From the NCBI RefSeq assembly GCF_003990445.1, contig NZ_REEZ01000012.1:1-64000 (forward strand): 64,000 nt of DNA, read 5' to 3'. Of this stretch, positions 12,417 through 35,391 are shown piece by piece. The first letter of the stretch is position 1; every line of letters starts with the position of its first letter. A program made the translations under genes and the position numbers. The notes beneath the pieces were generated by a model. The model saw only the letters and a list, made by a program, of their open reading frames with translations. It was not told the origin of the DNA and did no database searches. The DNA comes from Pararhodobacter zhoushanensis (GTDB lineage Bacteria > Pseudomonadota > Alphaproteobacteria > Rhodobacterales > Rhodobacteraceae).

Positions 12417-13694
12417 ATGCTGACCCCCGAAGAGAACGAAGTCCTGACCCGCGTGACGGGTGACGCGCCGATGGCGAAACTGATGCGTCAGCACTGGACG
12501 CCGGTCTGCCTGATGGAAGAAGTGGCGGAGAACGACGGCAAGCCGCTGCGCGTCGAAGTGCTTGGCGAATCCTACGTCGCGTTCCGTGATACCAAGGGCC
12601 GTCTCGGCATGCTCGACGAGCTCTGCCCGCACCGCAAAGCCTCGCTGGTCTACGGTCGCAACGAGGATTGCGGCCTGCGCTGCCTGTACCACGGATGGAA
12701 GATGGATGTGGACGGCAACGTCGTCGCCATGTCGTCCGAGCCCGAGGGCAGCCCGCTGATGGACAAGGTCAAGGCCCGTTCCTACCCGGTGCGCGAATGG
12801 GGCGGTTTCGTCTGGGCGTGGCTCGGCGACAAGACCGACATGCCGGAGTTCCAGCCCCCCGCCTTCGCCCCAACCGAAGACACCCCGGTCGCCATCCTGA
12901 AGATCCGTGTCCCCGCCAACTGGGCGCAGATCCACGAAGGACAGATCGACAGCGCGCATTCCTCGTCGCTGCATTCATCAACGATGAAACCGGCCCGCGT
13001 GGAAAGTGCCGCAGCCGATGACAAATCGTGGTACCGCCCGTCGACCGACAAATCGCCGCGCATGCAGACCGAGACCACCAGCTACGGCTTCCACTACGCA
13101 GCGATCCGCAAGCCGATCAAGAACGCAGCAACGCATCATTACCTGCGCATCACCGAGTTCGTGGCGCCATACTACTCGCTGATCCCGCCCAACAACGCCT
13201 ACAAGGTCGCCAGCGTCATCGTGCCGATCAACGACGACGAGACTGCGTTCCACTTCCTCGCCTTCGGCGGCCCGAAAGTGCCCTCGACCGAGGAATGGCG
13301 CGCCTTCAACCACGCTGTTCCGGGCAAGGACCTGGATGAGAAGTGGCGCACGCTTCGGACGCTGGACAACGACTTCAAGCAGGACCGCGAGCTGATGAAG
13401 GAAGGCCACTTCACCGGCGTTCCGGGCATCCCGAACGAGGACATCATCATGTGGGTGTCGATGGGCAGCCGCGTGCAGCGCCATACCGACGTGCTGGGCG
13501 CCTCGGACCTCGCCATCGTCGAGTTCCGCCGACTGATGACCGACGCCGCGCAGAAGGTGGCCGAGGGCGGCCCGGCGATCGGCACCGCGAGCTTCGCGCT
13601 GCAGTCGCGCATCGCCTCGCACGAGGGGGTCTATCCCAAGGATGTCGACTGGCGCACGCTGGTCGCCCATGACCCGGCCGAAGCGGCCGAGTGA
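12417..13694 (+). CDS. pht3: phthalate 4,5-dioxygenase, Rieske oxygenase component
   Basis: Terminal oxygenase that adds O2 across C4-C5 of phthalate to give the cis-dihydrodiol. 425 aa, with a strong AGGAGGAG ribosome-binding site. The Rieske [2Fe-2S] ligands are Cys70, His72, Cys89 and His92. The mononuclear-iron ligands lie in the motif E174-x3-D178-x2-H181-x4-H186 (GQIDSAHSSSLH). The family (alpha-only, PDR-coupled oxygenases) also includes phenoxybenzoate, toluenesulfonate and isophthalate oxygenases. The adjacent pht4/pht5-like genes make phthalate the best call. It is transcribed alone and followed by a strong terminator. Confidence 0.88.
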   Translation: MLTPEENEVLTRVTGDAPMAKLMRQHWTPVCLMEEVAENDGKPLRVEVLGESYVAFRDTKGRLGMLDELCPHRKASLVYGRNEDCGLRCLYHGWKMDVDGNVVAMSSEPEGSPLMDKVKARSYPVREWGGFVWAWLGDKTDMPEFQPPAFAPTEDTPVAILKIRVPANWAQIHEGQIDSAHSSSLHSSTMKPARVESAAADDKSWYRPSTDKSPRMQTETTSYGFHYAAIRKPIKNAATHHYLRITEFVAPYYSLIPPNNAYKVASVIVPINDDETAFHFLAFGGPKVPSTEEWRAFNHAVPGKDLDEKWRTLRTLDNDFKQDRELMKEGHFTGVPGIPNEDIIMWVSMGSRVQRHTDVLGASDLAIVEFRRLMTDAAQKVAEGGPAIGTASFALQSRIASHEGVYPKDVDWRTLVAHDPAEAAE

Positions 13695-13794: not shown

Positions 13795-14586
13795 TCAGAC
13801 GGTTTCGAGGCGCGCCGCCAGCTCCGCCGACGTCCGGCGCAGCAGCTCGGAGAGTTCATCCGCGCGGCGTGATATGCGCTCCGTCGGCCCATGAATCCCG
13901 ATGCCCAGCGGGCGTGCGTGCCCCGGCGGCACCGGGATCAGCGTCGACATCATAGACGCATCCCAATGCACCGTGCGGTGCGTCGGAATGTCCAGCAGGT
14001 CGCGCGCGTGCAGGATCGACACGTCGGTATCACGATTGGCGTCGAGCACCGCCTCGAAGGCCGCCTGGGGGTAGTCGCGCGGCGAGATCAGCCCCTCGGC
14101 CACGGTGCGGCGGTAGATCTGCAGCGCCACCGGCCGCGGCGCGCGCGCCAGCATCAGCCAGCCGGTGCCGTTCTGCACCATCAGCCGCCGGTCGCCCGCG
14201 CGGATATGGGTGTTGCGCCCCTCCTGCCGGTGCAGCGAGGTGACGTAATCGACATGCAGGTCGGCGGGCGCGGCCAGCACCACCGGCTCGCCCGCAGCCT
14301 CGCGCAGACGGCACAGGGCATCGAACAGCACGGTCTGCTCATAATCGTCGACCTGCATCCAGCCCGTCAACGTCTGCAGCCGGGGCCCGGGGAGATAGGC
14401 ATGGGTCGCGGGATCGAGCGTCATGTAACCCATGTCCAGCATTGTACGCAAAAGCGCGGTCAGGCTGGAAACCGGATAGCCGAGCGCGGCGCCCAGTTCG
14501 TGCAGCCGGGCAGGCTGTCGGTGACTGGCGAAGAACTCGAGGATCTCGAACACCCGCGCGGCGGATTTCACCTTGTCTGCGGTCAT
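13795..14586 (-). CDS. IclR-family transcriptional regulator (2)
   Basis: 263-aa IclR regulator, normal length. Winged helix near residues 8-65 (ARLHELGAALGYPVSSLTALLRTML), followed by a GAF-like effector domain. It converges on the oxygenase terminator and is divergent from the 3-hydroxyacyl-CoA dehydrogenase-type gene 338 bp away, which it may control. It is a different lineage from the IclR at 3789 (only the domain layout is shared). Confidence 0.85.
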   Translation of the reverse strand: MTADKVKSAARVFEILEFFASHRQPARLHELGAALGYPVSSLTALLRTMLDMGYMTLDPATHAYLPGPRLQTLTGWMQVDDYEQTVLFDALCRLREAAGEPVVLAAPADLHVDYVTSLHRQEGRNTHIRAGDRRLMVQNGTGWLMLARAPRPVALQIYRRTVAEGLISPRDYPQAAFEAVLDANRDTDVSILHARDLLDIPTHRTVHWDASMMSTLIPVPPGHARPLGIGIHGPTERISRRADELSELLRRTSAELAARLETV

Positions 14587-17503: not shown

Positions 17504-18814
17504 TCACAGCATCGACGGCAGCAGCGTCGACAGCCCGGGAACCAGTGCCAGCACGATCATGCCCAGCAGGTACAGCAGCACAAAGGGCCAGGCCGAGGAG
17601 AAGACCTTGCCGAGGCTGGCGTCTTCCCACGCGCTTTTCAGCGCGAAGAGCGTGTAGCCGAAGGGCGGGGTCATGCCCCCCACGGTGATGTTCACCAGGA
17701 ACAGTAGCCAGAACCAGATCGGATCGAATTGCAGTTCCTCGATGATCGGCAGGTAGATCGGGATGACGATCAGCATCAGCGCGATCTGGTCGATGAACAT
17801 GCACAGCACGAAAGGCAGCAGCATCAGCAGGATGAGCATCACCCAGCGCGACTGTTCCAGCCCCACGACCCATTCGGTCATCGCCGAGGCACCGCCGGTG
17901 AAGGCCAGCAGCTGGCTGAACAGTTTCGAGCTGGCCATGATGAACAGGATCATCGCCGCCACCTTGGCCGAGGAAACCAGCGACTCGCCGATCATCTTGA
18001 ACGACAGGTTGCGATAGATCGCGGCGATGATCAGCGAACCGATGACACCCATCGCGCCGGCCTCGGTCGGCGTGGCGATGCCGACCAGGATGAGCCCCAT
18101 CACCATCAAGATGATGATCGAGAACGGCACCACCCGCAGCAGCGCCCAGCCCTTGTCGGCCAGCGTGGCGCGGGTGCCGTCGTCGGGCTCGTCGGGCGCC
18201 AGCGACGGGTTCAGCCAGACGCGGATGAAGCAATAGCCCAGGAAGATCGCGGCGAACATCAGGCCGGGAATGATCCCGGCGATCAGCAGCCCGGCGATGG
18301 AGACGCCGGCCAGCGTGCCGATGATGATGACCAGCACACTGGGCGGGATCAGCGGCGCCAGGCTGGCGCCCGCCAGGATCGTGCCGGCCGACAGCCGCGC
18401 GTCGTAGCCGCGCGCGACCATGCCCGGCAGCAGCGAGCGGCCCAGCATGGCCGCCACGCCCATCGCAGCACCCGACAGGGTGCTGAACACCGTGGCCAGC
18501 AGGATCGACAGCACGTACTGGCGCCCTTTCACCCGACCGACCAGAGTGTCGATGGACCGGAGCAGCACCTCGACCGAGTTCGAGCGGAACAGGATCTCGC
18601 CCATCAGGATGAACAGCGGGATGGTGACCAGCGATTGCGTGGTCGTCGTCTCGTAGAGCGAGTTGACGAACATGCCGTAGCCCATCGGTCCCATGATGAC
18701 CGCGACGGCCAGCAGGTTGACCAGCAGGAAGGCCGCGAAGACGGGCAGGCCTACGGCCATGAAGCCCAGGAGCAGCCCCACGCCGGTCGCGACGGCGGCG
18801 ATACCTTCAACCAT
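17504..18814 (-). CDS. dctM: TRAP transporter large permease (DctM type)
   Basis: 436-aa, about 12 membrane segments, the Na+-coupled channel subunit of a tripartite TRAP transporter (inner membrane). Typical stretches such as PSVLVIIIGTLAGVSIAGLL and the C-terminal MTPPFGYTLFALK are present. It overlaps the dctQ gene by 8 bp. It acts with the DctP binding protein at 19431 to import a carboxylate; an aromatic acid such as phthalate is likely from context. Confidence 0.9.
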   Translation of the reverse strand: MVEGIAAVATGVGLLLGFMAVGLPVFAAFLLVNLLAVAVIMGPMGYGMFVNSLYETTTTQSLVTIPLFILMGEILFRSNSVEVLLRSIDTLVGRVKGRQYVLSILLATVFSTLSGAAMGVAAMLGRSLLPGMVARGYDARLSAGTILAGASLAPLIPPSVLVIIIGTLAGVSIAGLLIAGIIPGLMFAAIFLGYCFIRVWLNPSLAPDEPDDGTRATLADKGWALLRVVPFSIIILMVMGLILVGIATPTEAGAMGVIGSLIIAAIYRNLSFKMIGESLVSSAKVAAMILFIMASSKLFSQLLAFTGGASAMTEWVVGLEQSRWVMLILLMLLPFVLCMFIDQIALMLIVIPIYLPIIEELQFDPIWFWLLFLVNITVGGMTPPFGYTLFALKSAWEDASLGKVFSSAWPFVLLYLLGMIVLALVPGLSTLLPSML

Positions 18815-19316
18815 GGGTCACCTCGGGTTGGGAGTCGGTCTCGGAAAGCGCCTGGCCGAAGGCGAGGCGCAGAAAATACAGGCCGGAATTGGCCACGCCA
18901 TAGGTGATGAAGGCCACCAGGATCCATTTCGGAATGCGCACGGTGGTCAGGGTCGCCGTCCCGCGCGAGGCCAGGTGCTGCACCTCGCCGATGCAAAGCC
19001 AGGCAGCCCAGAGACAGGTCGCCGCCGCCACCAGGAAGCCCGCGCGCAGGATCACCTGGCGCAGCCGGCCGACCAGGTCGGGCAGGATAGTCACGGCCAC
19101 GTGCCCGCCTTCGCGGGTCAGCCAGGGCGCGGTGCTGAACACCGTGATCAGCAGCAGGAAGGAAACGAAATCGCTCGCCCAGAGGGTCGGCGCGCCGAAG
19201 GCATAGCGCGAGACGACCTCGAAGGCGTAGATGAGCACGATGGCTGCCAGCGCACCGACGCCGATGAAGAACATCAGCCGGGTCAGCACGTCCTGAAGCG
19301 TCAGGATCGGTCGCAT
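18807..19316 (-). CDS. dctQ: TRAP transporter small permease (DctQ type)
   Basis: 169-aa protein with four predicted membrane helices and the DctQ pattern VVSRYAFGAPTLWASDFV between the first two. It bridges binding protein and DctM. Start at 19316; it overlaps dctM at its 3' end and lies 114 bp after the dctP stop. Confidence 0.88.
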   Translation of the reverse strand: MRPILTLQDVLTRLMFFIGVGALAAIVLIYAFEVVSRYAFGAPTLWASDFVSFLLLITVFSTAPWLTREGGHVAVTILPDLVGRLRQVILRAGFLVAAATCLWAAWLCIGEVQHLASRGTATLTTVRIPKWILVAFITYGVANSGLYFLRLAFGQALSETDSQPEVTHG

Positions 19317-19430
19317 GGAGGGAAGCTCCTGGAACGGAAAGGCCGAAGAGAATGGGCCGAGAAGGAGGACCGGGGGACGGAAAGACGCGCGGCACCAAGC
19401 GGCCGCGCGTCGGAAGGGGCCGGGCCCCGA

Positions 19431-20432
19431 TCAGCCGTCGAGATCGGCTTCGGTCGCCAGACGGCGAATTTCCTCGATCGCCTCGCCCGATTGCGTGGCC
19501 GCGAGGTCCATCACGCCCGAGAACCAGGCCGAGCTGAGCGTGCCCGCCAGTTCCTCGGACAGCTCGGTCACGCTCATGCCCTCTGCTTCCAGGGCGGCGC
19601 TCTCTTCGGCGACTAGCGTGTCGAACAGGCCATTGGCTTCGATCTCGAACTCGCGCGCGGCGGTCTCGATCTCGGCCCGGGTTTCCTCGGACAGGTCGTT
19701 CCAGGTGTCAAGGTTCATCAACACCAGATGGCCGACCTGGCCGAAGGTCGGGCGCATCATGTAGTCGGCGACCTCGAACCAGCGGTAGGACAGAGCGCCG
19801 ATGGTCGGCCAGGCCGCACCGTCGATCACACCGCGTTCCAGCGCCGGGTAGATCTCGCCGCCCGGCAGCACCACGGGCGAGCCACCCAGTACGTTGATCG
19901 CCGGGTGGTAGATCGGCGTGCCGCGCACGCGACGTCCTTCGAGGCCGTTCTCGCCGACCGGCTCGTTCAGCATGATGTGGTAGCCATTCAGGTCGTAAAG
20001 CACGGCGATCAGCTTCAACCCCTGCTCCTGGTAATCGGCATCCACCGCGTCCCAAATTCCGGCTTCGCGCAAGGCCTCGGTATCGCCCGACAGGCCGTCC
20101 AGCGCCATTCCCACCGAAGTCTGGTTGAAGTGATAGGCACCATTGGTGAACAGCAGGTCGAACAGGCCGCGCGACACCGGGTCGAACTGCTCGAACGGGG
20201 GCACGGTCTCGGGGCCCATGACGTTGACGCCGAAGCCCTCGGTCACGGCTTCGTCGAGCGTCTCGATGAACGACGTCAGCACGTCGACCGCAACATAGCT
20301 GGAATCCCAGCCCGACAGCAGGCGGAAGTCGCGTGCCTCGGCGGCACCAGTCAGGCCCAGCGTCGCGGCCGACAGCGCCGAAGCGCCCGCAAGGGCACGC
20401 AGTTTGTTGGTGAATGTGGTGGATGAAGTCAT
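19431..20432 (-). CDS. dctP: TRAP transporter periplasmic substrate-binding protein (DctP type)
   Basis: 333-aa secreted binding protein with a signal peptide ending near AEA (residues 31-34). The family arginine-containing segment RRVRGTPIYHPAINVLGG and the GVIDGAAWP loop contact a carboxylate in relatives. It has a strong GGGAGGAG ribosome-binding site. It is the first gene of a dctP-dctQ-dctM-aldehyde dehydrogenase operon; MarR-box B lies about 85-95 bp upstream. Confidence 0.88.
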   Translation of the reverse strand: MTSSTTFTNKLRALAGASALSAATLGLTGAAEARDFRLLSGWDSSYVAVDVLTSFIETLDEAVTEGFGVNVMGPETVPPFEQFDPVSRGLFDLLFTNGAYHFNQTSVGMALDGLSGDTEALREAGIWDAVDADYQEQGLKLIAVLYDLNGYHIMLNEPVGENGLEGRRVRGTPIYHPAINVLGGSPVVLPGGEIYPALERGVIDGAAWPTIGALSYRWFEVADYMMRPTFGQVGHLVLMNLDTWNDLSEETRAEIETAAREFEIEANGLFDTLVAEESAALEAEGMSVTELSEELAGTLSSAWFSGVMDLAATQSGEAIEEIRRLATEADLDG

Positions 20433-20975: not shown

Positions 20976-22883
20976 TCAGCCGGCGGCGTTCTGTTGCACG
21001 CTGGCCCGGCGCCCCGCCACCAGGTGACGCGCCAGCAGAACCGCCCCGATCGCGATGCCCGCCACCGCGAACAGCTGGAAGGGCGAGACAGCCGCAATCG
21101 CACTGCCCAGCATAAGCAGCCGCTCCGCCGGCGACACCGGCTTGCTGGCGAAGGCCTCGACCACGGTGGCCACGGCCAGCGTGGCAATCACGCCTCCTAC
21201 CACGGCCAGCGTATTCGACAGGGGGTCGGCCAGCAGCATCAGCGCCGGGTTCCAAACGAAGGCGAAGGGCAGCATGAAGCCGATCGAGGCCAGTTTCACC
21301 GAGGTGAAGGCGATCTTGAACGGGTCTTCATGTGCAATCGCCGCCGCCGACAGGGCCGCCACCGCAATCGGCGGGGTCAGCGCCGAGAGAACGGCAAAGT
21401 ACAGCAGGAACATGTGGCTCTGCAGCACCGGATAGCCCAGTTGCGCCAGCGCCGGACCGACCAGCACGGCAGCCAGGATGTAGGCGCTCGGGGTCGGCAT
21501 GCCGAGACCCAGGATGATCGTCACGACAGCGGCGATAACCAGCGTCAGGATCGGCTGCGAGTTGCTAATCACCAGGATCAGGTTCGCGGCCTTCATACCC
21601 AGCCCCGTCATCGACAGGCCCCCGATCACCAGACCCGCGGCGGCACAGGCGCCAGCCACCGGCAGGATGCGCAGCGTGGTCTCGCCCAAGCCCTCGATCA
21701 CCTGCCACGGCGACAGGCGCGTCGCCTTCAGCAGCGTCGAGGCGATGATGACACCCATCACGCCGATCCCGGCGGTGAAGGTCGGAGAATAGCCCGAGAG
21801 CAGCGCCACCACGATGCCGATGATCGGCAGCAGGAAGACCCAGCCCGTGCGGAACGTCTGCGCTACGGTCGGCATCTCGTCCTCGGACGGGCGCAGGTCT
21901 TCGCGCACGGCGCGCAGGTGGACCTGACTAAAGACGCCGAGGTAGTAGAGCAGTGCGGGCACCACGGCGGCGACGACCACCGCCTTGTAATCCACGCCGG
22001 TATATTCGGCGAGAATGAAAGCGGCCGACCCCATCACCGGAGGCATCGCGCTGCCCCCCGTCGAGGCCGCGACCTCGACCGCGCCGGCGAAGCGCGCGCT
22101 GTAGCCCAGTCGCTTCATCACCGGGATGGTGATCGAGCCCGTCGCCACCACGTCCGAGGTCGGGCTGCCCGACATCGTGCCGTAGAGCCCTGAGGAAATC
22201 ACCGCGATCTTCGCCGGACCGCCGCGGGTGCGCCCGGTCAGAAGCGCCGCGAGGTTGAAGAAGAACTCGCCCCCGCCCGCTTTCGACAGAAAAGTGCCGA
22301 ACATCACGAACAGGAAGACGTAGCTGGCGACCACCTGGATCGGCACCCCGAACACGCCATCCGTGGTGAAGACCAGGATATCGAGCAGGTAGGTGAAATC
22401 GTCGACGCCATGCCCGAAGGGCGGCGGCAGCAGGTAGCCGAACCAGTTGTACGCCAGGAAGGCCACGACCACGATGGTAAGTCCCATGCCCGTGGTCCGG
22501 CGCGTCGCTTCGAGGGTCAGGAGGAGTAGCGAGATGCCGAAGAAGAGCTGCGCGGGCGTGAACGGATCCAGCAGGCTGATGCGGTCCGCAATGGCGGTGG
22601 CGTTCACGAAGAAGAAGATGCCCGCTGCCAGGCTGAGCAGCGACAGGGCGATATCATAGAACGGGATGCGGTCGGGAGCGTTCGGCGTGGCACCGATCGC
22701 CGCGAACATGATCGCGTAGATCCCCGAAACGAAGAGGATGCCCAGAACTAGCGGATCCGAGATGGTGAAGAGGTTGGCGTAGATCACCCAGGCCGAGAAG
22801 ATCGCGGCCACCACGACGATGGCCCGTTGCTGGCCGGCCGCAAGATCCCTCCTGCGGCCGGTGGAGACGAGTGTCCCGATCAT
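20976..22883 (-). CDS. TRAP transporter fused 4TM/12TM permease (TAXI type)
   Basis: 635-aa inner-membrane protein in which the small (DctQ-like) and large (DctM-like) subunits are one chain, as usual for TAXI-class TRAP systems. Characteristic stretches are TMSGSPTSDVVATGSI and GGSAMPPVMGSAAFILAEY. The ATG overlaps the stop of the binding-protein gene (ATGA), so translation is coupled. The substrate is unknown; members transport small carboxylates. Confidence 0.9.
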   Translation of the reverse strand: MIGTLVSTGRRRDLAAGQQRAIVVVAAIFSAWVIYANLFTISDPLVLGILFVSGIYAIMFAAIGATPNAPDRIPFYDIALSLLSLAAGIFFFVNATAIADRISLLDPFTPAQLFFGISLLLLTLEATRRTTGMGLTIVVVAFLAYNWFGYLLPPPFGHGVDDFTYLLDILVFTTDGVFGVPIQVVASYVFLFVMFGTFLSKAGGGEFFFNLAALLTGRTRGGPAKIAVISSGLYGTMSGSPTSDVVATGSITIPVMKRLGYSARFAGAVEVAASTGGSAMPPVMGSAAFILAEYTGVDYKAVVVAAVVPALLYYLGVFSQVHLRAVREDLRPSEDEMPTVAQTFRTGWVFLLPIIGIVVALLSGYSPTFTAGIGVMGVIIASTLLKATRLSPWQVIEGLGETTLRILPVAGACAAAGLVIGGLSMTGLGMKAANLILVISNSQPILTLVIAAVVTIILGLGMPTPSAYILAAVLVGPALAQLGYPVLQSHMFLLYFAVLSALTPPIAVAALSAAAIAHEDPFKIAFTSVKLASIGFMLPFAFVWNPALMLLADPLSNTLAVVGGVIATLAVATVVEAFASKPVSPAERLLMLGSAIAAVSPFQLFAVAGIAIGAVLLARHLVAGRRASVQQNAAG

Positions 22884-23863
22884 TGCGACAGCCCTGCCTC
22901 ACTGTAGGCACGGGCGGCGCCGGGGTGGAACTCGAGCACGCTGGGCGTGGCGAGCAACTCGGGCGTCAGGGATTGCATGGCGCTGTGAACCGCGCGCACC
23001 TCGTCGATGTTGGTGATGAGGGCGTTGGTCAAGGCATAGGCGTCGTCGTCGCTCATCGCGTCGGTCGCGGCCAGCAGCGCCCCCAGCGTCACGGTGTTCA
23101 CGTCCGCCTGCTGGTTCGAATAGCTGCCAGCGGGAATGACCATCTGGCCGGTGCCGAAGCGCTCGTTGGTGGCGTCGATGACCTCCTGCGGGACCGACAG
23201 CAGCACAACGTCAGCATTCGTGTCAACCGCGCGAAACGACGAGTGGTTGATGAAGATGCCGTTGGTAATCATGTCGAGCCGTCCGTCCTGCAGCAGCTCA
23301 CCCTGCTCATTGGCGCCGGCGCGCACGAACTGGCCGCCAGCTTCGGCCAGGGATTCGTCGGTCACCCCCACCAGCTCGAACATCATCAGCGCGATGTTCG
23401 AGGTGATGTTCCCCGAGCGGTTGATGCCGATGCGGATCGGCGCGCCGCTGCCGGCGATGTCGTCCAGGCTGTCGATGCCGTATTGCTCGGCCATCGAGCG
23501 GTCGAGGAAGAAGTGCATCGGCGCCCAGTTGTACATGTAGCCGATGGCCCGCATGTTCGTGATCGGCCCGCGGAAGGGCTCTTCGCCTCCCAGCGCGAGC
23601 TGCGCCTCGGCGTCGTGCACCAGGCCCAGATCCGTGCGCCCGGCGCCCAGCAGGCCGATGTTGGCGAACCCGCCGCCCGTAGCCTGATAGGTCACCACGG
23701 CCGAGGTGTCCGCCACCTGCGCGGCGCGGTCGATGCCGGCGCCCAGCAGCGACCAAAGGCCGCCCGGGTTCCCGCCTGAAAGAGTGAGGTTGAGCGATTG
23801 GCCGTGACCAGCCGTCGCCGAGACGGCGAGGCCGGCAGCCATCGCGATTGCAGTGAAACGCAT
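22880..23863 (-). CDS. TAXI-family TRAP substrate-binding protein
   Basis: 327-aa secreted binding protein. I choose ATG 23863 because GGGAGG lies 8 bp upstream, while the ATG at 23869 is only 2 bp from it. Signal peptide up to about residue 21 (ATAGHGQ), then the TAXI opening LNLTLSGGNPGGLWSLLGAGI. It is the first gene of the operon binding protein, fused permease, small membrane protein. A TTGACA promoter with MarR-box C lies upstream. Confidence 0.88.
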   Translation of the reverse strand: MRFTAIAMAAGLAVSATAGHGQSLNLTLSGGNPGGLWSLLGAGIDRAAQVADTSAVVTYQATGGGFANIGLLGAGRTDLGLVHDAEAQLALGGEEPFRGPITNMRAIGYMYNWAPMHFFLDRSMAEQYGIDSLDDIAGSGAPIRIGINRSGNITSNIALMMFELVGVTDESLAEAGGQFVRAGANEQGELLQDGRLDMITNGIFINHSSFRAVDTNADVVLLSVPQEVIDATNERFGTGQMVIPAGSYSNQQADVNTVTLGALLAATDAMSDDDAYALTNALITNIDEVRAVHSAMQSLTPELLATPSVLEFHPGAARAYSEAGLSQ

Positions 23864-23955: not shown

Positions 23956-23996
23956 TTAGACATCTATCTTTAAAGCCCTCGCTAGGAGATTGTCAA
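23956..23996 (-). promoter_or_regulatory. promoter of the TAXI operon with MarR-box C
   Basis: On the minus strand TTGACA (23996-23991) is followed after 17 nt by TTAAAG. The box TTAGACATCTAT (plus 23956-23967) sits just downstream of the -10, around the expected start of transcription, a position suited to repression. Confidence 0.55.
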
Positions 23997-24218
23997 CGAT
24001 TAGATACCAAAGCTTGCTATCCCCCCACTCAAGCTCGACGCGGAAGGCGTTACGGTCCCCCGCGGCGCTGGAAACCGGGTAATGCCGACACTCACGAAAG
24101 CAACATACATCATGACGAAGACCCTGTGCGGGCGGGCGCCCTCGCCCATCCTGCAGCAGCACTATTGCGCCTACCGGTGCTACGACGCCGAGGCGGGCCG
24201 CGCATTTCATGAGGATTT
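23997..24218. other. intergenic stretch up to the IS110-family element
   Basis: No gene, terminator or repeat is evident. It is the upstream flank of the TAXI promoter, ending at the 11-bp repeat that borders the IS. Confidence 0.4.
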
Positions 24219-25446
24219 GCGGCTTTGATGGTGTGCCCCCCCGACGGCATCGATGTGCCAAGGTGGGTCTGCAAGGATCCACAAAGGAGAGCGGTCATGT
24301 CGGAGATTATCACGGTCGGGCTCGATCTGGCGAAGAATGTGTTTCAGGTCCACGGTGCCGACGCTACGGGCCGGGCGGTGCTGCGCAAGAAGCTGCGAAG
24401 AGATCAGGTCTGGCATTCTTTGGACAGCTGCCGGCCTGCGTCGTCGCGATGGAAGCCTGCGGTGGCGCCCATTTCTGGGGGCGCGAGATCGGGAAGATCG
24501 GGCATGACGTGCGGTTGGTCCCACCCGCCTACGTGAAGCCATTCGTGAAGCGCCAGAAGAATGATATGGCTGATGCCGAGGCGATCTGCGAGGCGGCGAC
24601 GCGCCCGACGATGCGCTTCGTGCCGGTGAAGAGCGAGGAGACCCAAGGCGCGGCGATGGTCTTTCGCATCCGCGAGTTGCTTATCCGGCAGCGAACCCAG
24701 ACCATCAATGCCCTGCGCGGGCATCTGGGCGAGTTCGGAATGATCGTTCCGCAGCGCGCGGCCAACATGTCGAAGCTGATTGCCATTGTGGAAGACCCGG
24801 AAAGCGGTCTGCCTGCCGATGCCATCCCCACGCTCAAGGTGTTGGTGGCGTCACTCGCCCATCTCGGAGCGGAAATCGGCAAGCTCGATGCCGAGATCGC
24901 CCGGTGTGCCAAGGAGAATGAGGTGGCGCGGCGCCTGATGACAGTCCCGGGGATAGGTCCTCTGATTGCCACGGCCATAGCGGTTCTGGCTCCGCCCCCC
25001 GAGACGTTCCGCAAAGCGCGCGACTTCGCGGCCTGGCTCGGGCTCACGCCCCGTCAGCATTCCACAGGAGGCAAGCAGCGTCTCGGGGCCAACACGAAGA
25101 TGGGCGAACGGTCGTTGCGGCGATTGCTGATCATCGGGGCCAACAGCGTCATCATCAAGCGGCATGTTCATGCCGCTGCCCGGCCGGGCACATGGCTTGG
25201 CGAGATGCTGACGCGCAAGCCGCCGATGCTGGTGCGGGTCGCGCTGGCGAACAAAATGGCGCGGATCGTCTGGGCGCTGATGGCCCGAGGCGGCGCCTAC
25301 CAGTCTCCGACCGCTGCGGCGTAAGCCGTCACTGGTCGCGAGGACGTCGGAGCGGAAGAGGGCAAGGAGACGTTTGGCGCACGGTCGTGAGACGGGATCG
25401 GGAGAACCAGAGCGCAACAGAGTGCCATCGAGCACGCGGCTTTGAT
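24219..25446 (+). mobile_element. IS110-family (IS1111-like) insertion sequence
   Basis: About 1.2 kb, bracketed by an exact 11-bp direct repeat GCGGCTTTGAT at 24219-24229 and 25436-25446. Short sub-terminal inverted repeats ATGGTGT (24228-24234) / ACACCAT (25464-25470) are also present, so the exact end on the right is uncertain by about 25 bp. The 5' non-coding part is about 70 bp and the 3' part 120-145 bp. This layout fits the IS1111 group, whose guide (bridge/seek) RNA lies downstream of the recombinase gene. Confidence 0.7.
24297..25324 (+). pseudogene. IS110-family DEDD transposase, 1-nt frameshift
   Basis: The start is ATG 24297 with AAGGAGAG upstream. The N-terminal RuvC-like part shows the first Asp (VGLDLAKN). 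At 24410/24411 one base is missing (GTCTGG where GTCCTGG restores V-L-A-F-F-G-Q) and reading continues in another frame with the Glu of AMEACGGAHFW and the Asp pair of KNDMADAEAIC. The C-terminal Transposase_20 domain has VPGIGPLIATAIA and the serine-bearing PRQHSTGGKQRLG. Joined, it would be a full-length protein of about 340 aa. Either inactive or a sequencing error. Confidence 0.85.
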
Positions 25447-25578
25447 CTGGACCCGACCTGCGAACACCATACGGGCCCGCGGCGTGATGATGGCCGCAAC
25501 AGAGGCCGGATACATGTCAGCACCCGACACCGCGCGAAACTGATCCAGAAACCCTCTTGCGCAAGGGGCGGTTATACA
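25447..25578. other. spacer between the IS110-family and IS5-family copies
   Basis: The stretch holds the right sub-terminal repeat of the IS110-like element and otherwise no recognisable gene. With 25325-25446 it makes the 254-bp non-coding tail after the transposase, where an IS1111-type guide RNA would be sought. Confidence 0.4.
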
Positions 25579-26617
25579 TGTTGCGCAAATGCTGTGAAGG
25601 TTTCACCTTGCGAATCCAGTCTGTTAGTCAGGCTGCATGAGCAGACCCATACCCCCGACCTACAAGACCAGGAACTGGCCAGCCTACAATGAAGCAGTCA
25701 AGCGCCGGGGCTCGCTGACGATCTGGTTTGACCCCGAGATGAGCTGGGATGCCGCGCCGACAGGCAGGCGTGGCCGCCAGCAGACCTACAGCGATGCCGC
25801 TATCCAGACGTGCCTCTCGATGAAAGTGCTGTTCGGCATGGCGCTCCGGCAGACGACCGGGTTCGTCGAGAGCCTGCTACGGCTGGTCGGCCTGAACTGG
25901 ACGGTGCCCGACTTCAGCACGCTATCTCGCCGCCAGAAGACCTTGGCCGTGAACATCCCCTACCGCGGCTCCAAGGGGCCGTTGCACCTGCTGATCGACA
26001 GCACCGGGATCAAGGTCGAAGGTGAAGGCGAGTGGCACGCACGCAAGCATGGCGGCCCGAAACGGCGCGTCTGGCGCAAGCTCCACCTTGGGATCGATGA
26101 AGAAACGTTGGAGATCCGGGCCGTCGAAGTCACCGGGAGCCACATCGGTGATGCGCCCATCCTACCCACCTTCTCGACCAAATCCCGCAGGACCAGGAAA
26201 TCGGTAGCGTTACGGCTGATGGCGCCTACGACACGCGCAAATGCCACGATGCGATTGCAGATCGCGGTGCCCATGCCGTCATCCCGCCCCGCAAGAACGC
26301 GAAGCCCTGGAAGACGATCACCGCCGGAGCCGTGGCGCGAAATGAGGCCCTGCGCGCGGCGAAATACCTGGGCCGCGCGCTCTGGCGACGATGGAGTGGA
26401 TACCACCGCCGAAGCCGCGTCGAGACAAAGATGCATTGTATCAAGTTGCTGGGCCAGCGGCTCATGGCACGGGACTTCGATCGACAGGTCGCCGAACTCC
26501 AGGTCCGCATCGCCGTCCTGAACGGCTACACCGCGCTCGGAATACCCGTCACGGAAGCTGTGGGATAAGTCCGTCCGGGGAAAGGGGAACCTCGGCCTTA
26601 AGCCGATTTGTGCATCA
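25579..26617 (+). mobile_element. IS5-family insertion sequence (copy 1, decayed)
   Basis: Imperfect 22-bp inverted repeats (15 of 22 identical) lie at 25579-25600, beginning TGTTGCGCAAAT, and 26596-26617, whose complement begins TGATGCACAAAT. They enclose one transposase reading frame with a frameshift. The right end is only 6 bp from the TTGACA promoter of the secreted hydrolase gene. Confidence 0.65.
25637..26568 (+). pseudogene. IS5-family transposase, 1-nt frameshift
   Basis: The N-terminal part (25637 to about 26165) has the DDE first Asp in LLIDSTGIK. A base is missing in the C-run at 26165-26167, since adding one C gives L-P-H-L-L-D-Q-I-P. The rest, in the next frame, has VTADGAYDTRKCHDA (second Asp) and RSRVETKM (Glu). 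The joined protein would be about 310 aa and is homologous throughout to the intact IS5-family transposase at 30845, which supports the repair. It needs the missing base to be functional. Confidence 0.85.
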
Positions 26618-26623
26618 GAGCCC

Positions 26624-26651
26624 TTGACACTAATAATTAGCTATCTATGTT
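26624..26651 (+). promoter_or_regulatory. promoter of the secreted hydrolase with MarR-box D
   Basis: TTGACA at 26624-26629, 16-nt spacer, TATGTT at 26646-26651. The box TTAGCTATCTAT (26637-26648) overlaps spacer and -10. The layout is almost the same as the reductase promoter: TTGACA, then 7 (here) or 8 bp, then the box. Confidence 0.7.
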
Positions 26652-26717
26652 TTTCCCGGCGATGGTTCCCCGGAAGAGGAGCCGGATTTCATCGCTGCAT
26701 CAAACTGGAGGAAATTC

Positions 26718-28157
26718 ATGTCACGGACAGCCAATTTGGCCGGCCCGCGTTCGCGGACCGGAATGGTGGTGCTTTGCCTCGCTCTGACCGCGGGCTTCGC
26801 CCCGCTCGCGTCGGCGCAGGAGCAGCCCGCCTTCAACGAACATGCGGGAACCCTGCCGGACGGGACGGCATGGCTGATCCGCGTGCCCGAGAACTGGAAT
26901 GGTCGACTACTCAGGGATCTGGATTTCGCCAGCAACGTTTCGGTCGCGTCAGCGGTCCAGCGGTATGACGACCTGCTCGGTCGTGGCTATGCCTTCGCCG
27001 GGCTCGCCCGGCACCCGCTGCGCCTGTGGCAATACGATCCGCAGCGTGAAATCCTGAATCTACAAGCTGTTCAGGACATTTTCACGGACCTGGAGCGCGC
27101 TCCTGACATGGTGCTGCAATACGGCTGTTCTGGCGGAGGGCTCGACAGCCTCGCTTCGGCCGAGGATTACCCGGACAGGATCGACGGTGCCGCCGTGCTT
27201 GCCGCCCATACGCCGGTCTGGATCATGAGCAGTTTCCTGGATGGCTGGTTCGCCATGCAGACCCTGCTGGGCGAAAGCTATGAGGCCGCTGGGCACGGTC
27301 CGGCCAGCGATCTCGCCATCGTCGGCCTGCCCAATGCCGGAGCGGGTGGCGAGCGCAGCCTTGACGCGATCCGTGCGTCCTGGATGGCCGCCATCGAAAC
27401 GGCGGGCGAAAGCCCGGAGGGCCGCGCGCGGCTGGCGCTTGCCTTCGCCATCGGACAGTGGTCGCCGTGGATGGTCGAGGGGACCGAACTACCCGACACC
27501 GCGGATGCCGGCGCCATGGCCGACATGATCGTGGCCTCGGCGCTGCGCATCGGCGGTAATGTTGGCGGGTCCTCGCGGCTTCTGTTCGAAAACGCCGCAT
27601 CGGGGCAGCAACTTTCCGGGAACGAGGGGGTCGACTATGCCGCCTTCTACCAGAATGCCGCACCCGCGATGGCGCGGACGGTTGAGGCGCTCTACGAACA
27701 GGCCGGTTTGGACCTTCAGGCCGACATTGCCAGGATCGACGCCGCCCCCCGCATCGCGGCCTCGGATTATGCGCGCGATTTCTGGGCCGCAGACGGGCGC
27801 ACGACGACCGGCGATCTGCAGGTTCCGGCGATCCGCATCCACATGCTGGGCGACTGGGCCATTCCCTACACGCTGATGGAAGGCTACGGCGCGCTGGTGC
27901 AGGAGCAGGGTACCGGCGATCTGTATCGGCAGTCGCTGGTCCAGGGCACGGGCCATTGCGAGTTCACTGCTGCCGAAAGCACGGCCATCGTCGAGACCCT
28001 GGTCGAACGGATCGAAACGGGCGCCTGGCCCGAGACATCGCCCGAGGCGCTGAACGCCGCAGCCGAGGCGCTGGAAACCGGGAGCGCCCCCCGGTTCATC
28101 GAACACGGTGATTGGCGCGTGGCAGCCTATAACCGGCCCTGGGTTCCGGCAGAATGA
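26718..28157 (+). CDS. secreted CS-D-HC alpha/beta hydrolase (tannase/feruloyl esterase/MHETase-like)
   Basis: 479-aa exported esterase-type hydrolase. A signal peptide is clear (hydrophobic MVVLCLALTAGFAPL, cleavage after ASA at residue 33). The nucleophile elbow is YGCSGGG with Ser138 preceded by Cys137. The acid is probably Asp379 (MLGDWAIP) and the base His413 followed by Cys414 (GTGHCEF). This is the CS-D-HC signature in which the two cysteines form a disulfide, known from tannase, feruloyl esterase and MHETase. The insert between residues 165 and 345 would be the lid. It has a strong GGAGG site and its promoter carries the shared MarR-box, so I infer it releases an aromatic acid (perhaps phthalate from a monoester) for the pathway. 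Confidence 0.82.
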   Translation: MSRTANLAGPRSRTGMVVLCLALTAGFAPLASAQEQPAFNEHAGTLPDGTAWLIRVPENWNGRLLRDLDFASNVSVASAVQRYDDLLGRGYAFAGLARHPLRLWQYDPQREILNLQAVQDIFTDLERAPDMVLQYGCSGGGLDSLASAEDYPDRIDGAAVLAAHTPVWIMSSFLDGWFAMQTLLGESYEAAGHGPASDLAIVGLPNAGAGGERSLDAIRASWMAAIETAGESPEGRARLALAFAIGQWSPWMVEGTELPDTADAGAMADMIVASALRIGGNVGGSSRLLFENAASGQQLSGNEGVDYAAFYQNAAPAMARTVEALYEQAGLDLQADIARIDAAPRIAASDYARDFWAADGRTTTGDLQVPAIRIHMLGDWAIPYTLMEGYGALVQEQGTGDLYRQSLVQGTGHCEFTAAESTAIVETLVERIETGAWPETSPEALNAAAEALETGSAPRFIEHGDWRVAAYNRPWVPAE

Positions 28158-28163
28158 GCCGAT

Positions 28164-28190: not shown

Positions 28191-28503
28191 CACAGGTCCG
28201 GTGGCGCAAGTCATTGGTGGACCGTCGCCAACGCGCAGTGGGCATCTCTGGCGAGGGCAAGTGTTCCCATGTCTGGACGACCCCTGCTGCGCAAGCTGGG
28301 AATTGACGCGCCTATGCCGAAAGCAGTCATGTCTACGGCCTTTGTGGTGCGGTCTAGCCGCTGGCCCAGATGAAGTCCGCGGATCGGGTCCCAATCAAAA
28401 TTGCGCGCTTTCTGCGCCTTGACCCCCTGGGGTGTCCCGATCCCCGGTTCGACCGGTTTGTCATCTCTTCTCAGCTTCACGCATTCCGTCAGCGGTTCCG
28501 CGC
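28191..28503. other. non-coding tail of the IS110-family remnant
   Basis: 313 bp without a credible gene, downstream (on the minus strand) of the truncated IS110-family transposase. It probably contains that element's 3' non-coding end, where a guide RNA would be encoded in the IS1111 group. I could not define the end. Confidence 0.4.
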
Positions 28504-29033
28504 TCAGGAGACAGGGGCCGCGTAGATCTCGTTGCGGCGCAGGAGCGCCCAAGCGATCCGGGCAGTCTTGTTGGCGAGCGCGACCGCAACGACTTTCGGT
28601 CGCTTGCGTGCTTTAAGCCCAAGCATCCAAGCCTTGCCGGCATCGCCCTGCCTTGCAAAGCGAAGCACCGCAGTCGCGCCGGAAACGAGCAGTCGCCGGA
28701 TATATCCATCACCCTGCTTGCTGATCCCGGTCTGTCGATCCTTGCCACTGCTTGAGTTCGCCCGTGGCGTCAGGCCTAGCCAGGCCGCGAACTGTCGTGC
28801 CGAGCGGAACAGGCTCGGATCCGGAACATTTGCAGCAATTGCGCTGGCGGTGATCGGTCCGATACCGGGAATGGTCGCCAGTCGCCGGCTCGTCTCGTGC
28901 GTCCGGTGCCACTCGAGGATCCGTTTCTCCAGGGCCTCAGCCTGATCGGCAATCGCCTCCGCTTGGCAGATCAACGCATGGATGGCAGCCGCAGCATGGT
29001 CAGGCAACCGTTCCTGGTTCTCTCGGAAGTGGG
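28504..29033 (-). pseudogene. IS110-family transposase, C-terminal remnant cut by a tni element
   Basis: The open frame reads through THFRENQERLPDHAAAAI into the Transposase_20 domain (TIPGIGPITASAIA, LTPRANSSSGKDR) and ends normally at 28504. Upstream it stops being IS110-like exactly at 29033/29034, where the tni left end (TGTCGCC) begins, so the N-terminal RuvC half was displaced by tni insertion and is not elsewhere in the window. It is a different lineage from the copy at 24297. Confidence 0.85.
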
Positions 29034-29100
29034 TGTCGCCTTGCCCTTAAATCCGAGACACGGCGCGTTTTCCGGCCTTTCTTGCCCTTAAATTTGAGAT
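29034..29100 (+). repeat. left-end repeats of tni copy 2
   Basis: TTGCCCTTAAATCCGAGAC at 29041-29059 and TTGCCCTTAAATTTGAGAT at 29082-29100 match the copy-1 end units. As in copy 1, the tniQ stop codon (TAA) is inside the second unit. Confidence 0.85.
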
Positions 29101-29879
29101 GAGGTGGCTGAACCGCCGACGCGTAGTCGCATCCGCTGAGCAATCTGGTCGACGGTTGCAAGCAGTCGGGGCTCCTTATCGTAGGCGCGAAGCAGGGCAA
29201 CTCGTGCGTAGACGTCGATGTCCATGCTGCACAACGCAGCCTTTACCAGTGGACGTGATTGGGCGGAGGCAATGGCGGCAAGGCAGAAGAGCCTTATGTT
29301 CGGGCGGGGGCTTTGAAGCGCGAAGAAAGGGTCTCCACATAAAGCTTTGAGTCCCATCGCGAAGGTGACCGCCCGCATGGCTCGGCGTAGTTGACGCGCG
29401 CTGCCCGACACCGCGACACGCTCCAGGATCCGTGCCCCCCGGCGGGCACGATCAACCAGCTTTTCGGAGACCGCTGCGCCATTTTGCCTGTCGGCCTTTG
29501 GAAGAAGCCGGGCACCACAAATCTGGCAGTCGAACGCCCAGGCCCTACGCCAGTGCCTGAGCTCAAGGCCGCCATCAGCGCAGCTTGTGCAAGCCTGGAA
29601 CGGCACCTGTGCGGTCAACCGCATCTCTGCTTCCGGCATCGCCGCGAAAGTCATCGACGACACGAACGCTGGATCGAAGCGCGCCGCAACGGAAATCCTA
29701 TCCGCGGCCAGCATGTCGAGATCAAAATCAAGGGCTGCAGCATATTTTGCGTCGATCCCGATATGGGCGAGCAGGTCTGCTACCTCGCAATGATTGGAAG
29801 CGGCCAGTCGCGATAACCAACCAGAAAGCAACTCGTCCGGCACTGGCGTCACCGATATCGGCAGCGGGATACACGTCAC
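29088..29879 (-). CDS. tniQ: TniQ transposition protein, copy 2
   Basis: 263-aa TniQ, same length as copy 1 when started at the GTG (29879) that overlaps the tniB stop. PVPDELLSGWLSRLA and a zinc-binding-like CTSC...CQIC pair are conserved. Its partner TniA is gone, so it could act only in trans with the copy-1 transposase, whose end repeats are nearly the same. Confidence 0.85.
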   Translation of the reverse strand: MTCIPLPISVTPVPDELLSGWLSRLAASNHCEVADLLAHIGIDAKYAAALDFDLDMLAADRISVAARFDPAFVSSMTFAAMPEAEMRLTAQVPFQACTSCADGGLELRHWRRAWAFDCQICGARLLPKADRQNGAAVSEKLVDRARRGARILERVAVSGSARQLRRAMRAVTFAMGLKALCGDPFFALQSPRPNIRLFCLAAIASAQSRPLVKAALCSMDIDVYARVALLRAYDKEPRLLATVDQIAQRMRLRVGGSATSSQI

Positions 29880-30754
29880 GCCCCAGATTTCTCGAGCCGT
29901 CGCTGAGCGTTTGCATGGCGCGACCAGACCGGTGTCCATTTTGCGATGGCATCATCAGTGACGCACTCGTCACCGCTGATGATCGCGTCGATGGACAGAT
30001 CCTTGACCAAGGCAAAGATGCGGGACGTCACCCCGCCAGTTAATGCGAGGATCTGCTTGAGCGACCGCACTTGCAGATTGGATTTCTTCTCCAGCGGCAT
30101 GGCCGCGATCAATGTCTGGATCATATCCGAAAACTCGGCATCATCGCGCCAATTCGGCAGGTGGTGTTCATCAAGCCGACGGGCCAGTTGGACATCGCCG
30201 CGAATGGCATCGACGGCTTCGCTGACACCGTAGCAGACCAAAGATGCCTCCAGCTCGTTGCTGAGATACCTCAAGACATTGAGGAACCGGCGCTGTTCCC
30301 TATGCGTGCCCGCAAGAAGGTTGTGGACTTCGTCGATCATGATCATCCGCAGCCCGAGGTCGCGCAAAAGGCCCACGACCCGAACTTCCAGCGAGGCAAC
30401 ACTCTGCGCCTTCAGGCTCAGCGTCGACGACGGGGCTCCGACGGCTGCGAGGATGTGCATATAGAACCGCCGCTCATCAGGAGCGGGTGGCGCCTGCAAC
30501 AGAAGTAACGGGGTGTGGGTGACGCCCGACTCCGGATCATACTCCGGCGCATAGCGTCGCGACAGGTTGCGGGCGATCATTGTTTTGCCGATGCCGGACG
30601 CCCCATGCACCAGAAGGCCAGGCATGCGGGTCTGCCGCGACATCTCAATCAGACCATGCAGCCGGTCCAGCACTTGCTCCGCTCGGGGAAAGCCGATCCA
30701 GATGTCCGATTGAATGAGGGCGATGCGGCCGTCGTCTTCAGTTTCTGCCCTCAA
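29876..30754 (-). CDS. tniB: TniB transposition AAA+ ATPase, copy 2
   Basis: 292-aa AAA+ ATPase with Walker A GASGIGKT and Walker B MIMIDEVHNLL, closely similar to copy 1 over its whole length. I start it at TTG 30754, one base after the tniA stop as in copy 1. The upstream in-frame ATG at 30838 would read through the tniA tail and IS5 sequence and is not credible. Transcription from the lost tniA side is cut off, so expression is doubtful unless the IS provides a promoter. Confidence 0.88.
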   Translation of the reverse strand: MRAETEDDGRIALIQSDIWIGFPRAEQVLDRLHGLIEMSRQTRMPGLLVHGASGIGKTMIARNLSRRYAPEYDPESGVTHTPLLLLQAPPAPDERRFYMHILAAVGAPSSTLSLKAQSVASLEVRVVGLLRDLGLRMIMIDEVHNLLAGTHREQRRFLNVLRYLSNELEASLVCYGVSEAVDAIRGDVQLARRLDEHHLPNWRDDAEFSDMIQTLIAAMPLEKKSNLQVRSLKQILALTGGVTSRIFALVKDLSIDAIISGDECVTDDAIAKWTPVWSRHANAQRRLEKSGA

Positions 30755-30755
30755 T

Positions 30756-30789
30756 TCACCAGCGCTCCACCTTGAACATGGGGCGCGAT
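30756..30789 (-). pseudogene. tniA: tniA 3' remnant
   Basis: The codons for ...MFKVERW and the TGA at 30758-30756 match the end of copy-1 tniA. Upstream the sequence switches to the IS5-family end. A few bases beyond the IS (31846-31856, GTGCATCACCC) resemble the next tniA bases, which suggests an insertion plus a deletion. Confidence 0.75.
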
Positions 30790-31844
30790 GGGCGTTGTTG
30801 CAGAAAGTCGGCCTGAGTTGTGAGTGCCCCTTTCCCATTCAGTTTCATGCCACGCGGACGACGTGGGCGGTGCCGAGCGCGTTGAAGCGATTGACAAGGG
30901 CGACCCGGATGTGGATTTCGGCGGTTTGGCGATCTGGATCCCGCGCGGCGATGCGCTCACCGAAGGCCTTCAGGCATCGCATCTTGGCCTCCACTCGGCT
31001 ACGGGCGTGGTATCCGGTCCACCGCTTCCAGAATGCCCGACCGTAGTGACGCGTGGCGCGCAGGGTTTCGTTGCGCGCCTTGGCAGCCGGGCAGTCCTCT
31101 TTCCAAGCTCGACCGTTCCTTCGGGTCGGTATGATTGCCGTGCCACCGCGTGCGATGACGGCGCCGTGGCAGCGGCGGGTATCGTAGGCACCATCCGCGG
31201 TCACGGTGCCGATGTCCTCGTCCTCGGGGATCTGGCCCAACAGGTCCGGCAGGACTGGGCTGTCGCCTTCCCGGCTAGGGGTGAACTCGACGGCCCGGAT
31301 ATCCGAGGTGGCGATATCCATCGCCAGATGCACCTTGCGCCATTGGCGGCGGCCCTGAACGCCATGCTTGCGGGCCTGCCATTCGCCGTCGCCAAGAAAC
31401 TTGATGCCGGTGCTGTCCACCAGAAGATTCAGCGGCCCTTCGGCACGGCGATAGGGGATCTGCACCTTGAGGGTCTTCTGTCTGCGGCACAGCGTCGAGT
31501 AGTCCGGAACGGGCCAGTCTAGCCCTGCCAGGCGCAGGAGGCTCGCGACCATTCCGGCTGTCTGCCTGAGCGGTAGCTTGAACAGAACCTTGAGCGACAG
31601 GCAAAACTGGATCGCGGCATTCGAAAAGACCGGCGGGCGCCCTGGGCGTCCCTCATGCGGCGCGTGCCAGGTCATCTCCTTGTCCAGCCAGATCAGCAGC
31701 GATCCGCGCTTCCTGAGCGCATCGTTGTAGCTGGACCAGTTCGTCGTGCGGTAGCGGGCGGGCTTGGGCTTGCTCATGCAGATCGTCTAACCGCATGGAT
31801 TCCCGATGTGAATCCTTCACCGACTGAGTTCTGCAACAACGCCC
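30790..31844 (-). mobile_element. IS5-family insertion sequence (copy 2, intact)
   Basis: Perfect 16-bp terminal inverted repeats GGGCGTTGTTGCAGAA at 30790-30805 and, inverted, 31829-31844 enclose one intact transposase gene (1055 bp total). It sits at the junction of the truncated tni element and the plasmid backbone. No clear target duplication is visible at the flanks. Confidence 0.88.
30845..31777 (-). CDS. IS5-family DDE transposase
   Basis: 310-aa complete transposase. An N-terminal DUF4096/HTH-like part (FSNAAIQFCLSLKVLFKLPLRQ by position 50-75) is followed by a DDE core: Asp in LLVDSTGIK, Asp in VTADGAYDTRRCHGA, Glu in RSRVEAKM. It is the intact counterpart of the frameshifted copy at 25637 and could mobilise related IS5 ends. 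Confidence 0.92.
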   Translation of the reverse strand: MSKPKPARYRTTNWSSYNDALRKRGSLLIWLDKEMTWHAPHEGRPGRPPVFSNAAIQFCLSLKVLFKLPLRQTAGMVASLLRLAGLDWPVPDYSTLCRRQKTLKVQIPYRRAEGPLNLLVDSTGIKFLGDGEWQARKHGVQGRRQWRKVHLAMDIATSDIRAVEFTPSREGDSPVLPDLLGQIPEDEDIGTVTADGAYDTRRCHGAVIARGGTAIIPTRRNGRAWKEDCPAAKARNETLRATRHYGRAFWKRWTGYHARSRVEAKMRCLKAFGERIAARDPDRQTAEIHIRVALVNRFNALGTAHVVRVA

Positions 31845-35367: not shown

Positions 35368-35391
35368 AGTAGCGATAGATAGAACTGCAAA

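Follow-up and report, generated by a model that had tools for sequence, protein, structure and literature searches.

A probably exported CS-D-HC hydrolase carrying the operator of the phthalate regulon and found between tni transposition units in marine bacteria

This work concerns one gene in a 64,000-nucleotide stretch of Pararhodobacter zhoushanensis DNA (positions 1 to 64,000 of contig NZ_REEZ01000012.1, assembly GCF_003990445.1; hereafter the window). The gene encodes a probably exported serine hydrolase, its promoter carries the operator of the phthalate (pht) genes of the same window, and near-identical copies were found in many other bacteria, several of them between transposition units of the tni type. 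Taken as a whole, the results were read as an exported triad hydrolase of o-phthalate monoesters that is wired to the pht regulon by its operator and has spread as tni cargo; a probability of about two in three was assigned to this reading. Features are collected in Table 1.

Results

The hydrolase promoter carries the pht operator

The initial annotation, made from the letters of the window, had pointed out that the hydrolase and the phthalate dioxygenase reductase share a promoter box. The operator TTAGCTATCTA and a TTGACA element were indeed present at both, and the pattern TTGACAN{5,20}TTAGNNNNCTA occurred exactly twice in the whole 4.83-Mb genome, at these two promoters, with no match for the reversed pattern used as control. 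In the window, TTAGNNNNCTA gave five matches (two of them both strands of one palindrome) against 0.44 expected, and five or more matches were reached in none of 100 shuffles. Two further boxes were set aside: a one-mismatch box at 20516 was not claimed as the operator of the dctP promoter (the form TTAGN4CTA was present in 0 of 6 dctP upstreams), and a box at 38992, which sits within an open reading frame (ORF), was taken as chance.

Of 20 distinct hydrolase upstreams, six of them from near-identical copies, 19 contained the box TTAG-N4-CTA, often as the full palindrome TTAG-N4-CTAA, 60-118 bases 5' of the aligned start. It was also found in 11/11 upstreams of the pht oxygenase and 6/6 of the reductase (three near-identical in each), and in 0/7 upstreams of distant cousins. 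The hydrolase, oxygenase and reductase counts cover distinct 220-bp upstreams of matches with at least 45% identity that start within the first 40 residues; as background, 1.3% of overlapping 220-bp stretches in the window and 2.4% in all fetched loci contained the box, real sites included. Upstream of the MarR gene, dctP or the thiamine pyrophosphate (TPP) enzyme the box was not found.

Across the 28 genomes with the hydrolase, TTGACA plus box matched 71 times, in 27 genomes. Of these matches, 24 were at most 500 bases from an oxygenase gene and 28 more shared a contig with an oxygenase or MarR gene; 17 of the remaining 19 were assigned by hand to hydrolase promoters (16 by locus position, one by sequence only). 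A sample of 149 genomes of the order gave 8 matches in 7 genomes, two of which, G000 (the genome of the window) and G141, are the members of the sample with a pht oxygenase of at least 72% identity. The reversed control is rough, exceeding the pattern in these random order genomes (about 115, counted by hand, vs 8) and not in the hydrolase genomes (16 vs 71). By its shared operator, the hydrolase probably belongs to the pht regulon.

A homologue of the MarR protein encoded in the pht cluster was present in 26 of the 28 hydrolase genomes (20 at 58% identity or more, 6 at 31-39%); the two genomes without it also lack pht genes. It lay 2.5-10.6 kb from the oxygenase gene at 26 of 29 sites, and the other three were on separate contigs. 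Because this homologue accompanies the pht oxygenase across the hydrolase genomes, MarR is the likely regulator binding the operator. IclR2 was disfavoured for this role: it was not found beside diverged pht loci, whereas a MarR gene was (L014, L024, L026, L027 and L029; loci are numbered L and genomes G).

The gene keeps company with phthalate genes

Diverged homologues of the hydrolase were located beside phthalate genes in other genomes. Three of them (L024, 64% identity; L026, 62%; L028, 63%) adjoin pht5, pht4 and the reductase and oxygenase genes. L027 (72%) lies near pht5 and MarR and directly after TAXI-TRAP genes, L029 (62%) beside TAXI-TRAP and a MarR, and L014 (76%) on the same contig as pht5, pht4, the reductase and MarR. 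Six cousin loci contained no pht gene within 3-6 kb, except one weak DctP match. Of the 28 hydrolase genomes, 25 yielded a pht oxygenase with at least 53% identity (in pieces in G310), and in a further one, G305, the other genes of the pht cluster stand at a contig end. These 28 genomes cannot be counted as independent, since one recent lineage of the gene is present in many of them. In the order, 3 of 293 genomes, the genome of the window included, had the oxygenase at that level, and 3 of 293 had the hydrolase (weak matches in G133 and G131 uncounted). The search for pht genes covered genomes other than that of L025; the match at L031 is partial, being at the end of a contig. With the pht neighbours of diverged homologues, the conserved operator, the co-occurrence in 26/28 genomes and the accompanying MarR, the tie to the phthalate pathway proposed by the initial annotation is better supported than that annotation could know. 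The substrate is most likely an o-phthalate monoester.

Three loci carry the gene and operator in genomes that have neither a pht oxygenase nor a MarR homologue, namely L009 and L032 (Pararhodobacter marinus) and L030 (an Algiphilus metagenome-assembled genome, MAG). In Maritimibacter alkaliphilus HTCC2654 (L021), both hydrolase lineages (100% and 75%) were found about 10 kb apart on one contig, and the genome has two pht oxygenase and two MarR genes.

The same pathway link would hold if the enzyme were an o-phthalyl amidase, freeing phthalate from N-phthalyl amides instead of, or besides, esters. Such an enzyme (EC 3.5.1.79, Xanthobacter agilis) exists, and its sequence is listed in a patent, according to the available part of PMC1940265. 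The gene of one Marinibacterium anthonyi record, 99.8% identical, is annotated 'o-phthalyl amidase'; however, this annotation is presumably automatic, and the other 17 records with at least 99% identity say hypothetical protein. Natural phthalyl amides are scarce and phthalate esters abundant, which also counts against an amidase, and we consider it unlikely.

Anatomy and export of the protein

The positions that the initial annotation had assigned to the catalytic signature, Cys137-Ser138, Asp379 and His413-Cys414, were all as described and were invariant in a 15-row alignment (A1), whose rows are 61-77% identical to the window protein except for L012, the sole near-identical copy included (alignment A4 contains none). 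The window protein has cysteines at 20 (in the leader), 137 and 414 only. Because the mature region of 13/13 homologues, near-identical copies excluded, contains exactly the two motif cysteines, a Cys137-Cys414 disulfide is very likely. The leader, read by eye, is of Sec type, with a basic start, a hydrophobic stretch and ASA followed by Q at 33/34, in agreement with the signal peptide noted before. The hydrolase is probably exported, the periplasm being the likeliest destination, and the mature protein was computed at about 47.8 kDa with an isoelectric point of 4.4. The 'small lid' of the initial annotation found no support in modelling: in both structure models about 210 residues, for the most part helical, separate the strand that follows the nucleophile loop from the one preceding Asp379.

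In Aurantiacibacter sp. 219JJ12-13, the near-identical copy (L012:925-2304) has lost 19 residues in frame, and with them the hydrophobic part of its leader; a second copy in this genome (L020, 74%) has its leader intact.

Family and fold

The window protein scored below the Pfam cut-offs of Tannase (PF07519; 15.6 vs 29.8 bits) and DUF6351 (PF19878, 'Tannase-like family of unknown function'; 13.6 vs 22.4 bits) and had no match in NCBIfam. A CDxxDGxxDG-type Asp/Gly stretch, which we take to be the Ca site of the tannase lid, and extra cysteines are invariant in the three tannases of alignment A3 and absent from the window protein. Membership of the tannase family by sequence was rejected at the Pfam cut-off. 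The protein appears to work like a CS-D-HC esterase without passing as a member of that family, because its score is below the Pfam cut-off and the Asp/Gly stretch and extra cysteines are missing.

In a wider alignment (A2), 12 of 16 rows matched DUF6351 at an E value of 1 or less, and three cousins at 36-37% identity retained GCSGGG and HC, including two at about 37% that are annotated as DUF6351. Unlike the cousins examined, which lack the box, the gene of the window protein has the pht operator and pht neighbours. In the tree, the nine phthalate-clade rows formed their own clade apart from the distant cousins (support 100/99). A2 omits the A1 rows L012, L015, L019, L020, L021 and L029, and its L027 row begins at a non-start codon. 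Its farthest rows (L056, L062, L063, L064) retained HC and had T, M, E or S in place of the Cys before Ser.

A sequence search of the PDB with the single protein returned one weak match (E 0.52), a profile search returned alpha/beta hydrolases of a general kind, feruloyl esterase C among them at E 0.41-0.55, and hhalign against a profile of the three tannases gave a probability of 95.6 over only 117 columns. The first structure model, with the leader, was poor (mean predicted local distance difference test, pLDDT, 66.7); a trimmed model of the mature domain was better yet moderate (75.7). With the latter, the first 21 Foldseek rows against the PDB were 19 MHETase chains and 2 of feruloyl esterase C (best match E 2.8e-8, TM score 0.40), and VIA-align ranked many alpha/beta hydrolases equal. 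The comparison with tannases, feruloyl esterases and MHETase drawn by the initial annotation is supported, at the level of the models, for the catalytic class but not for the family proper. These models support a CS-D-HC alpha/beta hydrolase with MHETase as the nearest solved fold by Foldseek.

Nearness to MHETase would also suit an enzyme acting on terephthalate-type esters, such as mono(2-hydroxyethyl) terephthalate (MHET) and other products of polyethylene terephthalate (PET). The neighbours and regulon, however, are those of o-phthalate (pht3/4/5), and none of the annotated neighbourhoods names terephthalate genes, although no search aimed at such genes was made. A closer MHETase homologue, mle046, is already carried on such plasmids (PMC7666164, in the part available), and this reading seems very improbable. 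Feruloyl esterases are likewise among the nearest folds, and the oxygenase matches LigXa_C, which leaves its exact substrate unproven; the enzyme could then hydrolyse a plant or algal aromatic ester (feruloyl, galloyl) and the pht-type cluster serve a natural benzene-carboxylate. We hold this to be quite unlikely, given that homologues have conserved neighbours encoding 4,5-dihydroxyphthalate dehydrogenase and decarboxylase and that features common to the aligned tannases are missing.

A class-wide sample of 385 genomes contained the window gene and three distant matches, and viral contigs contained no relatives. Elsewhere in the same genome, G000:C7:37415-38770 (L066) is a PF07519 tannase-family gene above the cut-off, with CSTG and HC, a possible second aromatic esterase.

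Near-identical copies between tni units

The mobility of the gene had been missed in the initial annotation. Of 29 matching plasmid records, 18 encode a protein with at least 99% identity, as do 14 of 30 genome loci. By record name, the near-identical copies belong to about 14 genera, mostly of marine bacteria, plus the Algiphilus MAG, which may be mis-binned. Twenty-one copies (L012 not among them) showed 1-5 differences in 1440 nt from the window copy; one silent difference, at nt 1251, is common to all 21 and so private to the window.

Two tniABQ units of about 3.5 kb, in direct repeat, bracket the gene in Salipiger profundus, Thioclava and Phaeobacter inhibens, the paired units being 100%, 99.97% and 99.89% alike, respectively. 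The 76% lineage is bracketed in Phaeobacter sp. G2 by a different tni unit of 3.66 kb, whose two copies are 100% identical. The flanking units in relatives consist of tniA, tniB and tniQ (Pfam rve/Mu-transpos_C, TniB and TniQ) with inverted ends TGTC..GACA, and we take them to be Tn5053/Tn402-like. Left and right tni junctions combined in several ways across relatives, and the outer left flanks were all different in seven readable main-lineage loci. The outer ends of the four composites L036, L037, L039 and L041 showed no 5-bp target duplication. The window itself has no left tni unit and no long direct repeat in 22001-36000; insertion sequence (IS) remnants stand on the left and TniB/TniQ with ISRhba5 on the right. 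This looks like the layout before the tni insertions, and it was found joined to the transporter end of the pht region in L006, L007, L011, L025, L038 and L042.

The pht oxygenase was searched for in 13 hosts of near-identical copies: it was 88-91% like that of the window in 8, 100% in 3 and absent in 2. From the 8 hosts with only 88-91% it follows that the hydrolase gene can move by itself; it has also reached, separately from the pht cluster, cells that have pht genes of their own, where it seems to plug into the resident pht regulon. Spread by whole plasmids alone was disfavoured by the differing tni junctions, outer flanks and pht oxygenase alleles. With so many transposon junctions, and with the gene in two genomes without the pathway, it could also be carried along with no function under selection, owing its spread to very active transposons. 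Against this, the second lineage (76%) is also found between tni units, of a different kind; the triad is kept in all 15 A1 rows and the box in 19/20 upstreams; and the gene co-occurs with pht genes. We regard a mere passenger as highly improbable.

Other junctions were also observed. Around 43 and 3892 of L003 and around 8443 of L021, truncated tni ends flank the core segment and are followed by a ACACAAAGTGAGGCAGAG-like inverted repeat, an arrangement suggestive of a further element inserted in the tni ends. In the Thioclava plasmid pLX01 (L039, near 3900-3938), the left tni unit abuts, by eye, an apparent part of a serine recombinase that resembles the recombinase at window positions 35392-36288. 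Tn5053-type elements prefer resolvase sites, of which this junction is reminiscent.

Table 1. Positions of the hydrolase gene, its motifs, operators, tni abutment points and neighbouring genes in the window
Feature	Position	Strand	Basis or remark
Coding sequence, probably exported CS-D-HC hydrolase, 479 aa	26718..28157	+	ATG, intact; 21 near-identical copies elsewhere
Signal peptide coding part, residues 1-33	26718..26816	+	by eye
Codons of Cys137-Ser138 (nucleophile)	27126..27131	+	sequence, alignment A1
Codon of Asp379	27852..27854	+	sequence, alignment A1
Codons of His413-Cys414	27954..27959	+	sequence, alignment A1
Ribosome binding site GGAGG, six bases 5' of ATG	26707..26711	+	by eye
Hydrolase promoter: -35 TTGACA (26624-26629) and operator TTAGCTATCTA (26637-26647)	26624..26647	+	
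Operator TTAGCTATCTA and -35 TTGACA, divergent pht reductase / pht oxygenase promoters (reductase TTGACA plus TTAGCTATCTA, 12344-12368)	12343..12368	-	
Degenerate operator copy before TAXI-TRAP genes	23956..23966	-	
Left tniABQ abutment points in relatives: 25161, 26003, 26086	25161..26086		exact bases by eye
Right tniABQ abutment points in relatives: after 28446, 28612, 29008, 29287	28446..29287		exact bases by eye
MarR-family regulator, candidate operator binder	5287..5808	-	Pfam MarR; homologue in 26/28 genomes
4,5-Dihydroxyphthalate decarboxylase (pht5)	9185..10177	-	annotation of near-identical plasmid; conserved beside homologues
4,5-Dihydroxyphthalate dehydrogenase (pht4)	10189..11352	-	plasmid annotation; conserved beside homologues
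Phthalate dioxygenase reductase	11363..12304	-	plasmid annotation; conserved beside homologues
Phthalate 4,5-dioxygenase oxygenase subunit (pht3-like)	12417..13694	+	Rieske and LigXa_C (Pfam); plasmid annotation
IclR2	13795..14586		
Second TRAP transporter: large (17504-18814), small (18807-19316), DctP (19431-20432)	17504..20432	-	
TAXI-TRAP genes: fused permease (20976-22883), binding protein (22880-23863)	20976..23863	-	
IS110-type transposase gene	24209..25324	+	
IS5-type transposase remnant, left of hydrolase	25637..26521	+	
IS110 transposase fragment	28504..29007	-	
TniQ	29088..29939	-	Pfam TniQ
TniB	29876..30838	-	Pfam TniB
IS5-like element ISRhba5 transposase	30845..31777	-	

Discussion

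In the proposed mechanism, the protein would be an exported, probably periplasmic, alpha/beta serine hydrolase with the triad Ser138-Asp379-His413, in which the Cys137-Cys414 disulfide would tie the nucleophile and histidine loops together. An o-phthalate monoester, a breakdown product of plasticisers, would enter the periplasm and be hydrolysed to phthalate and an alcohol outside the cytoplasmic membrane. TRAP/TAXI transporters would then import the phthalate, and the dioxygenase, 4,5-dihydroxyphthalate dehydrogenase (Pht4) and decarboxylase (Pht5) would convert it to protocatechuate. The pht route from phthalate to protocatechuate is an established pathway. Expression would be governed through the pht-regulon operator TTAG-N4-CTAA, to which the MarR protein encoded in the pht cluster most likely binds, and the gene would have spread among marine Alphaproteobacteria, at least partly apart from that cluster, as cargo between tniABQ units. 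Uptake of o-phthalate by TAXI-TRAP in denitrifiers is described in the part of PMC13040137 available.

MHETase of Ideonella sakaiensis and the feruloyl esterases B and C (PF07519) gave the best Foldseek matches of both models; they share with the window protein the CS-D-HC arrangement, a leader peptide and, as proposed here, an ester of an aromatic acid as substrate. The window protein differs in scoring below the family cut-off, in lacking the CDxxDGxxDG-type stretch, in having two mature cysteines where those enzymes have many, and in its o-phthalate context. The available part of a 2026 review (PMC13040137) lists 27 characterised phthalate-ester hydrolases (MehpH, PatE, EstG and others) and describes those identified to date as known or predicted to be intracellular, without signal peptides. 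The reaction proposed here would be the same; however, those enzymes are described as intracellular, and the ESTHER classes in the table of that review differ (two rows are without a class). Mle046 is an MHETase-like gene on conjugative plasmids of marine Alphaproteobacteria, also a catabolic esterase gene, with a 100% identical copy in another record; it belongs to a putative composite transposon, in which it is flanked by Tn7-type transposases and accompanied by eight further ORFs, and its proposed substrate is MHET (available part of PMC7666164). Unlike Mle046, the gene described here is the only one between its flanking units, has a promoter of the pht-regulon type, and was found with several different tni junctions in many hosts. 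In the open PMC literature as far as available (including PMC1940265, PMC7666164, PMC9977937, PMC8269228 and PMC13040137), neither this gene nor a secreted o-phthalate-ester hydrolase was found; subscription papers were outside this scope, and absence from print is not claimed.

A bolder version of the proposal is that the gene is a single-gene cargo that wires itself: a composite tni transposon would carry an exported phthalate-ester hydrolase together with a pht operator, and wherever it lands in a pht-bearing cell the resident MarR would take control. The near-identity across about 14 genera would then reflect a very recent sweep, plausibly driven by synthetic plasticisers, and the protein would represent the first family of secreted phthalate-ester hydrolases. 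This version is tentative, and we place its chances somewhat below even.

If the proposal is true, a secreted enzyme class would be added to the breakdown of phthalate esters, for which the known enzymes are intracellular according to the available part of PMC13040137. It would also exemplify, in nature, how a gene related to a pollutant can sweep through marine bacteria, and how a mobile gene can arrive already fitted to a regulon present in its host.
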